This document shows, piece by piece, positions 2,356 to 8,640 of a stretch of 64,000 nt of DNA. A program made the position numbers and the translations under genes. The first letter of the stretch is position 1; each line of letters begins with the position of its first letter. The notes beneath the pieces are model-generated. The model was given only the letters and a program-made list of their open reading frames with translations, was not told where the DNA came from and made no database searches. This DNA is from Thermoplasmata archaeon (lineage in GTDB: Archaea; Thermoplasmatota; Thermoplasmata; Thermoplasmatales; GCA-001856825), in assembly GCA_023256475.1 (NCBI GenBank), contig JAGDXP010000012.1, positions 1 to 64,000 of the forward strand, read 5' to 3'.

Positions 2356-3753
2356 TCAGGAGCCGATTATACATAGTTTAAGATTTTCAACAAGATCATT
2401 CTCCCAGTCTTTTCTATCTCCGGATAAACTCATTGGTATTCCACACACTATTAATTCTGAAGAATCAGGATTGTCCTTTCTATTTAGAAAGCTGTATCTG
2501 CATCTCTTTGACCTGTTTTTATTTGGCTCATTAATCTCATTTTCCTTGTTTGGAAGGTTTTTAAGGGGGTAAATCATTATCGCCTTACTTGCTTTGTATA
2601 GTACAGAGTATGTGAACAGCTGATACAGATGTTGATTTTTAAGTTTAATATTGCATATTTTATCAATCGATTCACCTTCATCCCCTTCATCACCTTCATC
2701 GCTTTCTATAATCTGGTATTTAGTATCTATTATTGTTTCAATTTTACCATGGTTTCTTATTATTATATCTGGCCTTGTGTATACCACAGCTTCATCCCTT
2801 TCATCAAAAATAAAATTCTTTTTTTGGGACTGAGAATTTATTGTGATTTTATTTTCTTTACCAAATATCCTCTCCTGATTCAATTTTAATGCTCTGTAAA
2901 TAAAATTCTCAAAGAGTTTGTTCATGTCATAGAGGAAGGAATAATATCTCTTGCTACTGACATTAAAAAAGGAGTGCTTGTTGACAAGGAGTTCTGCATA
3001 ATTATAAGGAATCTGAAATCTCTCGTTGAGCCTATTGAAGTGAAATTCTCTCTTATCCCACTCCTCAGTGTCTGATATTTCTTCGGGCATGAGATTTATA
3101 ATCTTTGAAAGTCTCTCTCTCTGCCTTTCTAAACCTAATCTGTTCTCAGTCAGAAATTCAGTCGCGAATAGAAGGTTTCGATTCAGTTGATGATCATAAC
3201 TTTGATTGAAATATATGACATCCATTTTTGACTTGTCTATTCTGTTAATCTGCTTTTTAAGATCGAGTTTTCCTCTAAGATATTTGCTACTTTCACTTAC
3301 TTCGATGTATTCCAGTGGGAATCCTTCAGATCCTTCATGTTCCATTGACTTTATATAATGTGAAACGAGCATATTTAGAAAGCTCTTATGCCTACTGTTA
3401 GCCCCAGAAATATAATGGTCTCCAGGTTTCTTATTTTTATAATCAAATTCAAGAGTCCCGTAAATAAAGAAATTGGAAAAATTTTCTATGGAATTCTCTT
3501 CCCTGCTGTCTTTCCATATTTTTGGGAGGATTTCAAATTGAACATTTCCTAATCTTAAAAAGCCAACATAATTATTGAATTTTATTTCATTTTCATAGAT
3601 GCTGCAGAAATTTTTAAAAATCTTCCTTAACCTCTTTAAGTTTGCTTTAAGAACAGAGATGTCGTGTTCATTAAGATCTTGACCATTAACCTTTTTGATT
3701 GAATTAATCGGAATTGAATCATATTCATACAGCAGGTTGGATTGAACTTTCAT
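2356..3753 (-). CDS. mcrC: McrC-like component of a type IV/McrBC restriction system
   Basis: C-terminal PD-(D/E)xK-like motif PDIIIRNHGKIETIIDTKYQ...HLYQLFTYS; start overlaps the stop of the upstream McrB-like gene. Confidence 0.85.
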   Translation of the reverse strand: MKVQSNLLYEYDSIPINSIKKVNGQDLNEHDISVLKANLKRLRKIFKNFCSIYENEIKFNNYVGFLRLGNVQFEILPKIWKDSREENSIENFSNFFIYGTLEFDYKNKKPGDHYISGANSRHKSFLNMLVSHYIKSMEHEGSEGFPLEYIEVSESSKYLRGKLDLKKQINRIDKSKMDVIYFNQSYDHQLNRNLLFATEFLTENRLGLERQRERLSKIINLMPEEISDTEEWDKREFHFNRLNERFQIPYNYAELLVNKHSFFNVSSKRYYSFLYDMNKLFENFIYRALKLNQERIFGKENKITINSQSQKKNFIFDERDEAVVYTRPDIIIRNHGKIETIIDTKYQIIESDEGDEGDEGESIDKICNIKLKNQHLYQLFTYSVLYKASKAIMIYPLKNLPNKENEINEPNKNRSKRCRYSFLNRKDNPDSSELIVCGIPMSLSGDRKDWENDLVENLKLCIIGS

Positions 3754-5891
3754 ACTGACTCATTATGATGTTTTTTAAGGACATTATTGATCTTATTTAT
3801 GAGATCATTATAATCTTGAATTTCCTTTCTATGAACATAGGGAATAGAATTTGTATAATCATTATCTCTCTCTTCCTTTTCATAGAATTCGTCCAGAATT
3901 TCTTGAAGTTCTGTCATATCACTGTGAAAATATTCTTCCAAGAGGGGCATTATGCTGTATGAAAAGATATACGTTACTTCTTCCCTGGCTTTTTTTTCAT
4001 CTTTGATATTCTTCAACTTCTGGAAGAAGGCGTGTCCAATTTCGTAGTCCTCTCCTCTAGTAAACTCTATGCTACGATTAATATATTCCACAAATTTTAA
4101 TATAGTTTCCTTATCATCTCCTATTATTGATAACCATTTTAACAATATATCCTTATTGAAGCCGACCCTGAAGAATGTGAATCTTCTCCTTAGTGCAACA
4201 TCTATTAATGCTACGCTTCTATCTGAGTCATTCATAGTACCTATTATATATAGGTTTGATGGAACTGAAAAACTTATTAGATTTCCTTCATCATCAGTAT
4301 ATGGAAGATTGATTACAATTCCCCTTTTATCTTCTTCAACGAGTGTTATCAACTCCCCAAATATCCTTGATATGTCACCCCTGTTAATTTCGTCGATTAC
4401 CATCACATAATTATTTGAAGGATCTTGCTCTGCCTTGTCGCAGAATTTTTTGAAAATACCATCTTCTACCCTGTATTCAAGTTGGCCATTTTTTGTTTCA
4501 GCCTTTATTCCTGCAATGAAATCCTCATATGAATATGATTTATGAAATGTAACGTATTCTATGGATTTCCTGTAGCACAGGTCCTTGCAGACTTCCTTGT
4601 TCATATCTATTAAATAATCAATTAAGGAGACGCCATTTGTATCTTCTAAATAATTTTCAAAGAGCTCTAATATACTTATGGATAAAGGGGACAGATAATT
4701 TCCTTGTTTAAGATTCAGATTTTTATCATAAAAAACATCCTCTTTCCTTTGAAGATTTATCAACGTTCCTCCGTATTTGTTTCTCAAATCTGCAAAGGAA
4801 ATATGCGTCTTCAAATCTCTATAATTTTCCAGAGGTACGTAATAATATTCCTTGGGATTATCGGAAAATGCATTAATTGTTTCTGCTTCGCCCGCTACAC
4901 TGGAAATTCCAACTATTTCATTATTTTCATTATCTAAGTCAAGGTGAAAAACAATGTCTCCTTTCTTTACCATTTTGAGATTTTCGTACACATTCCTTCC
5001 ATCGGCTGATCGGGAAGCTGAAACCAAACATCTGTTATATTCAGTGTTTTTATCCTTAATATCCTCGTGGATATGATCTTTGCGACGAAATTTCTGAAGC
5101 CATATATTTGGTTTACCTGATTCTTCCGCTTCCTCTGAATTATTACCTTTGATGATATTTATTATTTTATTAAAATCCAGATCTTCATCCTTACATATAT
5201 TGCAGCTGATTAATTTGGCTAGCCTACCAGCAGTATAGGTTTTTCCTGAGCCCACTGGGCCGTGCAATATAATATTTTTTGGTATGTCAGTTAAGGTATT
5301 TTCTTTATACTCTGATTTTGTAGTATCATCTTTATCCGAGATAGAAGGTTGGACATATTCTTCATTACCACACTCATTATATAAAACTCCCTGTGATCTT
5401 AGTCCCGCAATTATGTCGATATTCTTTCTTGATTTTATTTCCTTGAATATACAGCAATATTCTTCAAGGTTCAATCTTCTGTACTGGCCATTAACAGCTT
5501 GTAATCCTCCGCCCAATTCTTGTGATGTTCTATAATGCCCCCCATTCTGTCCAACCAAGCATTTTATTAAAATCTCGTTAACCTCAGATCTTCCATTCTG
5601 ACTTGGGAAATCAAATTCAAATAGAGTTTTAAATTCCACTCGATATGGATAGACTTCATTATCCTCCCTAATAGGCCAGATAGGAGTATAATCTACTAAT
5701 TTTTTAGTTATGGTACCAATCAAAAAGCCCTTATTCATATGTTCAATGATAATGATGCCGTTTTCCCTAACGCTATCCCATCTATTCTTATAGCTTTGGC
5801 CACTCTTAACTCCCCAATGATTGGTTTTTTTAGCTATATCATAGTCCATTGGATAATTTTGTGGAACATTACAAAGGTATACGTCTACCAT
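3750..5891 (-). CDS. mcrB: McrB-like AAA+ (GTPase-type) protein with N-terminal and internal EVE/PUA-like regions
   Basis: Walker A HGPVGSGKT; Walker B YVMVIDEINRGDISRIFGELITLVEEDKRG; McrB-type signature IGTMNDSDRSVALIDVALRRRF; EVE-like segments at the N-terminus (NHWGVKSG...) and between Walker A and B (PNIWLQKFRRKD...CLVSASRSADG...VKKGDIVFHLD...EIVGISSVAGEAE). Confidence 0.85.
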   Translation of the reverse strand: MVDVYLCNVPQNYPMDYDIAKKTNHWGVKSGQSYKNRWDSVRENGIIIIEHMNKGFLIGTITKKLVDYTPIWPIREDNEVYPYRVEFKTLFEFDFPSQNGRSEVNEILIKCLVGQNGGHYRTSQELGGGLQAVNGQYRRLNLEEYCCIFKEIKSRKNIDIIAGLRSQGVLYNECGNEEYVQPSISDKDDTTKSEYKENTLTDIPKNIILHGPVGSGKTYTAGRLAKLISCNICKDEDLDFNKIINIIKGNNSEEAEESGKPNIWLQKFRRKDHIHEDIKDKNTEYNRCLVSASRSADGRNVYENLKMVKKGDIVFHLDLDNENNEIVGISSVAGEAETINAFSDNPKEYYYVPLENYRDLKTHISFADLRNKYGGTLINLQRKEDVFYDKNLNLKQGNYLSPLSISILELFENYLEDTNGVSLIDYLIDMNKEVCKDLCYRKSIEYVTFHKSYSYEDFIAGIKAETKNGQLEYRVEDGIFKKFCDKAEQDPSNNYVMVIDEINRGDISRIFGELITLVEEDKRGIVINLPYTDDEGNLISFSVPSNLYIIGTMNDSDRSVALIDVALRRRFTFFRVGFNKDILLKWLSIIGDDKETILKFVEYINRSIEFTRGEDYEIGHAFFQKLKNIKDEKKAREEVTYIFSYSIMPLLEEYFHSDMTELQEILDEFYEKEERDNDYTNSIPYVHRKEIQDYNDLINKINNVLKKHHNESV

Positions 5892-7562: not shown

Positions 7563-8640
7563 AAGATATCAAAAACTTTAACAATTTAATTATTGGCAGT
7601 AGTGATTATTATATTGATTTCAACTCCATCAGTTGAGGCATTTCAATTTGGATATATCCCCTTAGTCCTCACAGTTCTATGGTGTGCCCAATAACAGTGC
7701 CCTAGATTTGGGTTTTAATTTAATTAAAGACTTGGCTTCTTACAGCAACGGATATATGTATTGCAAAATTCAGTTTGGGTCTCTTGAAGTCGGCTATGCA
7801 AGTCTGATGGAAAAATGCTTTGAATCGGAAAACCCTTATCTTAATGTTGCATCTAAATTACAACTTAGTGCCGATTTCAACACTAGCGCTTCAGGACCAT
7901 GGGGCGTAGAAATAGTAAGATTTCCGTATTTTCTATAAACAAAGAATGTTGTAGCAAGCTTAGTAATGTATGCAATCATTTATGATAACAATAGTGGGTG
8001 GATTGTTTCAAGAGAAACGAAAATTATTGTTAATTGCTCTTCGGGAGCAGATTTTTCATAATTTGGTCCATTTTAAGGTAATTAAAATCTAAGCATTTCA
8101 AGAAATTTTTTAGCAGATGATACATACTGGTTTGAATGCTACGTAAAGCCTATGACAGAGGTAGAAGTGTGTGGAATTGACACAGTAATTGCTCAAATGA
8201 ATGCAAACACTATTTTGAACTCTGTCGATTTTTACAATATTCCTCAAGGGGGAGGTGGCGGAGGCAGAAGTTGTGTATCTGGAACAAAGCCAAATCTCCT
8301 GCATAACAGGAAATCCATTGATTCATCGGAAATTCAAGTGGGTGACAAAGTAGTGACTTACAATCCTCAGGATAACACCTATGGTACTGGAAAGATCAGG
8401 AAAGTACTCGTTAAGAATCAAACAGAAGAAATAACAATCAATATTTTCAATTAGCTTCAGATCAATTTGTTTTAACACAAAAGGGATAGCTACAATCAAC
8501 CTAACACTCAATGACTCACTATTTGATGCACTAAATAATTCCTAAGTTCAAATTTTCTCAATATCTGAAACGGCAGGTGAATATTCAGTGTATGGTTTTC
8601 TAAATCGAATCCTGACAGCGATTATAAAGGAGGGAGTAAC
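7559..8640 (+). pseudogene. Decayed secreted protein with poly-Gly linker and Hint (intein/hedgehog-like) domain
   Basis: Signal-peptide-like LLAVVIIILISTPSVEA and an ectodomain fragment (7684-7938), then GGGGGGRSCVSGTKPNLLHNRKSIDSSEIQVGDKVVTYNPQDNTYGTGKIRKVLVKNQTEEITI; continuation LASDQFVLTQKG is in another frame. Confidence 0.55.

Follow-up and report, generated by a model that had tools for sequence, protein, structure and literature searches.

The mcrBC locus

The window, that is, the entire stretch of 64,000 nucleotides analyzed here, contains two intact ORFs on the reverse strand: mcrB (positions 3750-5891 (-), 713 aa), which encodes a McrB-like AAA+ GTPase with an inserted EVE domain and a probable second EVE-superfamily domain at the N-terminus, and mcrC (2356-3753 (-), 465 aa), which encodes the PD-(D/E)xK nuclease partner. 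The mcrB stop and the mcrC start share the tetranucleotide ATGA (3750..3753 (-)), read directly from the sequence, an overlap indicative of translational coupling. Pfam searches with the McrB ORF produced a match to AAA_5 (E = 2.4e-17) and a weak match to EVE (residues 303-372), and the E. coli McrB structure was matched in the PDB (E = 8e-44). The McrC ORF matched PF10117 (E = 3.3e-45), and its nuclease residues can be read in the sequence as RPDII (2761-2775 (-)) and IDTKY (2716-2730 (-)); together with the ATGA overlap, these observations confirm the coupled PD-(D/E)xK McrC claimed in an earlier note on this DNA.

The motor motifs of McrB are Walker A, GPVGSGKT (residues 211-218; 5238..5261 (-)); the McrB motif TFHKSYSYEDF, at which the AAA+ fold resumes (residues 448-458; 4518..4550 (-)); Walker B, VIDEINR (residues 498-504; 4380..4400 (-)); and the McrB signature TMNDSDR, of the NxxD type (residues 552-558; 4218..4238 (-)). 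The pair has the features of the McrBC family, namely an AAA+ McrB that has both Walker motifs and the MNxxDR signature, and an adjoining McrC with the DUF2357/McrBC domain and the PD-(D/E)xK motif; the ORF at 3750-5891 (-) encodes a complete McrB GTPase.

Elsewhere in the window, within an ORF-poor region (5.9-9.6 kb), a short ORF at 8152-8454 (+) ends in SCVSGTK...IDSSEIQVGDKVVTYNP, which is reminiscent of a Hint/intein N-terminal stretch; this ORF has no match in Pfam.

An insertion following the Walker A helix

The Walker A and Walker B motifs, previously put at about 280 aa apart, are indeed separated by 279 residues, compared with 64-107 residues in most of the 85 McrB-like ORFs used for comparison (from relatives, viral contigs and one Campylobacterales contig) and 96-98 residues in the closest relatives. 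The excess follows the Walker A helix and precedes the FHxSYxYED motif: the stretch from Walker A to this motif spans 230 residues as against 18-65 in most of the comparison ORFs and 48-49 in L002, L003, L004 and L018, the four nearest relatives. The additional block comprises about 174 residues and has clean borders. The genome is a draft (28 contigs, 89% complete) and a second copy of the McrB arrangement was not found, so that an assembly or annotation artefact deserves mention; we nevertheless consider it extremely improbable. A single open frame runs across both junctions, and the GC content of the insert (0.335) is within the range found on either side of it in the gene (0.33-0.35), which makes a chimeric assembly unlikely; furthermore, other genomes carry independent inserts at the same loop.

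The inserted domain, EVE2 (residues 254-427; 4611..5132 (-)), can be aligned over its length with the domain that precedes the P-loop in five other McrBs, two of them from the same order (L003 and L018), two from haloarchaeal plasmids (L156 and L158) and one from an Agrobacterium plasmid (L157). The profile of these six sequences, which holds no EVE-HNH sequence and is independent of the AF2 alignment discussed below, matched the EVE domain of VcaM4I in the PDB (6yex, E = 9.2e-6) and canonical EVE proteins in hhalign comparisons (P = 2.2e-5, Prob 76). The match to Pfam EVE (E = 0.0012) was below the curated cut-off. Single-sequence alignments of the insert with one EVE-HNH protein and one standalone EVE protein scored above all 1000 shuffles. 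A single-sequence AF2 model of the full 713 aa was discarded (pLDDT 33), and the insert alone was folded; the resulting model (pLDDT 72.5, pTM 0.69) has an EVE/PUA fold, although the underlying alignment consisted of EVE-HNH homologues (21 rows), which biases the model towards EVE. The first Foldseek match of this model was again VcaM4I (6yex, E = 2e-7), and the other leading matches were other EVE proteins, the N-terminal domain of Staphylothermus marinus McrB and YTH domains. From the profile comparisons and the model, we assign the insert to EVE domains of the VcaM4I type, with the PUA-superfamily fold, so that the EVE/PUA-like domain that the earlier note had perceived inside the AAA+ module stands. 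The same evidence bears on the possibility that the stretch is merely a long helical AAA+ element shared by McrBs in general. A longer Walker A-B spacing does exist in some McrBs, but this explanation is contradicted by the short spacing in the closest relatives and by the match of the insert to EVE domains in both sequence and fold.

Close homologues of the EVE2 subtype were detected neither in the viral contigs nor in phages, and a search of the genome contigs for related loci produced a single distant AAA+ match. Two candidates were set aside: the match of L037 to the insert involves a SNF2-like ORF and was taken as chance, and in Microvirga H1, where the match spans residues 291-669, the EVE-like region lies in front of Walker A rather than being inserted.

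The base pocket of the inserted domain

In VcaM4I, the EVE domain flips 5mC and 5hmC into a pocket made up chiefly of P24, W82 and Y130, with Q128 acting as the wedge (PMC7897488). The insert retains the GD motif along with QGxYL, which aligns with the end of the EVE-HNH domain, the register relative to Q128 and Y130 being provisional; it carries Ala in place of P24 and Phe close to T11, and lacks a Trp corresponding to W82. The pocket Trp is present in L156, L157 and L158, and absent from L003, L018 and the insert. The specificity of the insert may differ from that of VcaM4I, or be weak. An alternative reading is that the inserted EVE lost base reading and makes non-specific DNA contact or simply decorates the ring, with the N-terminal domain alone setting the specificity. 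The loss of the VcaM4I pocket Pro and Trp and the canonical specificity position of the N-terminal domain speak for such a scenario, whereas the retention of GD and QGxY, the motifs best conserved in the family, and the full length of the inserted domain, with no signs of decay, speak against it; on balance, we regard it as possible but doubtful.

The probable N-terminal EVE domain

The N-terminal region (EVE1; residues 1-157; 5421..5891 (-)) is probably a PH1033/UPF0310-like EVE domain, with weaker support than the insert. It aligns collinearly with two archaeal UPF0310 EVE proteins, with Smith-Waterman z-scores of 5.3 and 6.7 (0 of 1000 shuffles as good) and an hhalign P of 1.6e-4. The EVE-like region that had been proposed at the N-terminus receives modest support from the shuffling and profile comparisons and not from domain databases: residues 1-157 have no match in Pfam, and the sole match in the PDB, PH1033 (1wmm, E = 0.85), is not significant alone. 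No clear EVE1 homologue was found in plasmids, and within the order only weak matches were observed. EVE1 shows no similarity to the EVE-HNH type (z = 0.3), and most likely the two domains of this McrB represent different EVE subtypes.

Recurrent insertions in McrB

In the tree of the AAA+ core (79 rows), the McrB from the window groups with L002, L003, L004 and L018 (support 100/99), all of which lack the insert. Of the 79 rows, 20 carry an insert between the two Walker motifs, at two sites. In seven rows, the insert is in the loop that follows the Walker A helix, and five changes on the tree are needed to account for this distribution; in the remaining thirteen, it lies just before Walker B. 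EVE-like inserts at the former loop were found only in the window and in L005, the McrB of genome G032 (Pfam EVE, E = 9e-4), which belong to separate lineages; the insertion in L005 is thus an independent event within the same archaeal order. The VcaM4I-type domain itself precedes the P-loop in each of the five homologous McrBs and is inside the motor only in the window. The direction of transfer between the two positions is not readable from the tree, the front position being that of five of the six homologues. The complete arrangement was found in one genome only.

Several further observations concern inserts in other McrBs. In six McrBs from viral contigs (L142, L145, L146, L151, L152 and L154) and in L023-L026 of Thermoplasmata f11, 161-243 residues separate the FHxSYxYED motif from Walker B; by eye, several of these pre-Walker-B inserts look PUA/EVE-like (W-x-S-L-G ... 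GDIV ... GDYEY), with profile support that is not significant. Six viral-contig McrBs (L087, L088, L100, L102, L111 and L140) carry helical-looking, non-EVE inserts after the Walker A helix, with 128-153 residues before the FHxSYxYED motif; no EVE match was obtained for the inserts of L087, L100, L111 and L140. A haloarchaeal plasmid encodes a McrB-like protein of about 1100 aa (L156:3299-6604) with apparently three EVE-like regions before the AAA+ module. Finally, L021 lacks a pre-Walker-B insert although it is nested among the close McrBs L023-L025 that carry one, apparently as a result of a recent natural loss of the whole inserted domain. As this difference between L021 and its close sisters shows, the inserts in McrB are modular.

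GTPase domains of McrB frequently hold insertions that likely encode specificity domains, according to Bell et al. 2024 (PMC11090510). The arrangement described here is, then, an uncommon instance of a recurrent insertion habit of McrB: the EVE domain inside the motor, as claimed originally, is there, but it is less exceptional than implied, given that Walker A-B inserts recur.

Proposed function

We consider it best explained, with a probability of roughly 0.7, that the two genes of the locus encode a modification-dependent (type IV) restriction system of the McrBC type, with two EVE readers per McrB. In the McrBC family, a GTP-driven hexamer is bound by McrC, and the N-terminal domains read the substrate (PMC7680126). 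Like its counterparts from E. coli and Thermococcus, McrB would form an AAA+ ring that is driven by GTP and to which the McrC nuclease is recruited. Two readers would be presented by each subunit, the PH1033-like domain at the N-terminus, the usual position of specificity domains, and the VcaM4I-type domain, fixed at both ends in the motor loop that connects the Walker A helix with the following AAA+ strand. Under this scenario, an insert-tolerant loop took in a reader that close relatives carry before the P-loop, presumably leaving the motor unbroken. DNA is most likely bound by both EVE domains, and by one or both of them via a flipped modified base, such that the ring would load only on modified foreign DNA, which McrC would then cut. 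Dual modified-base sensing with the two EVE domains, as suggested in the earlier note, is a plausible inference, although part of the base pocket is not conserved in the insert. In a more elaborate version, a modified base bound by the inserted EVE would directly gate the GTPase inside the AAA+ core, and the N-terminal EVE would recognize another modification; such a two-key (AND-type) motor is a speculative extension that we deem rather unlikely.

A search of the 89% complete genome for PF00145 (cytosine-5 methylase) yielded no match, which fits the idea that the host's own DNA is spared, provided that the system targets cytosine-5 marks. A single match over the cut-off was obtained for PF01555; this only N6_N4_Mtase match of the genome lies at G000:C18:142154-142477.

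An alternative target is modified RNA (tRNA, rRNA), as proposed for CoCoNuTs. RNA binding is common among EVE, YTH and PUA domains, and part of the McrB family is predicted to target RNA (PMC11090510). Here, however, the signature is NxxD rather than NxD, HEPN was not found, McrC retains the DNA-type nuclease motif, and among solved structures the insert is closest to a DNA restriction enzyme, so that RNA sensing appears improbable compared with the restriction of modified DNA.

For the question of how base recognition by McrB leads to GTP hydrolysis and translocation, the McrB with a reader embedded in the motor and the close relatives with the same reader in front make a natural pair, with which a coupling between sensing and GTP hydrolysis could be addressed. 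The loop that follows the Walker A helix accepted EVE domains at least twice within one archaeal order.

Comparison with known systems

EVE-McrB is the commonest EVE architecture in defence (PMC7641849), and the locus shares with the EVE-McrB/McrBC type IV systems (Bell et al. 2020; E. coli, Thermococcus gammatolerans) the NxxD AAA+ GTPase, the coupled McrC and a PUA-superfamily reader. Unlike those systems, it has two readers, most likely of different EVE types, one of them inside the AAA+ module. Assignment to the CoCoNuTs, which combine an NxD signature with a coiled-coil fusion, was rejected on the basis of the signature, TMNDSDR being NxxD, not NxD. The VcaM4I EVE-HNH endonuclease (PDB 6yex) contains the same EVE subtype as the insert, but in the window the nuclease is McrC rather than HNH, and the modified-base pocket is partly altered. 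The McrB of L005 resembles that of the window in having an EVE-like insert at the same loop but belongs to a separate McrB lineage. The McrBs with GTPase-domain inserts described by Bell et al. 2024 are similar in that the insert likely encodes a specificity domain; the statement in the pertinent part of that work is generic, with no site or domain named, whereas here the insert is an assignable VcaM4I-type EVE domain located after the Walker A helix. Taken together, these comparisons define the locus as a variant of EVE-McrBC type IV restriction and not a new system.
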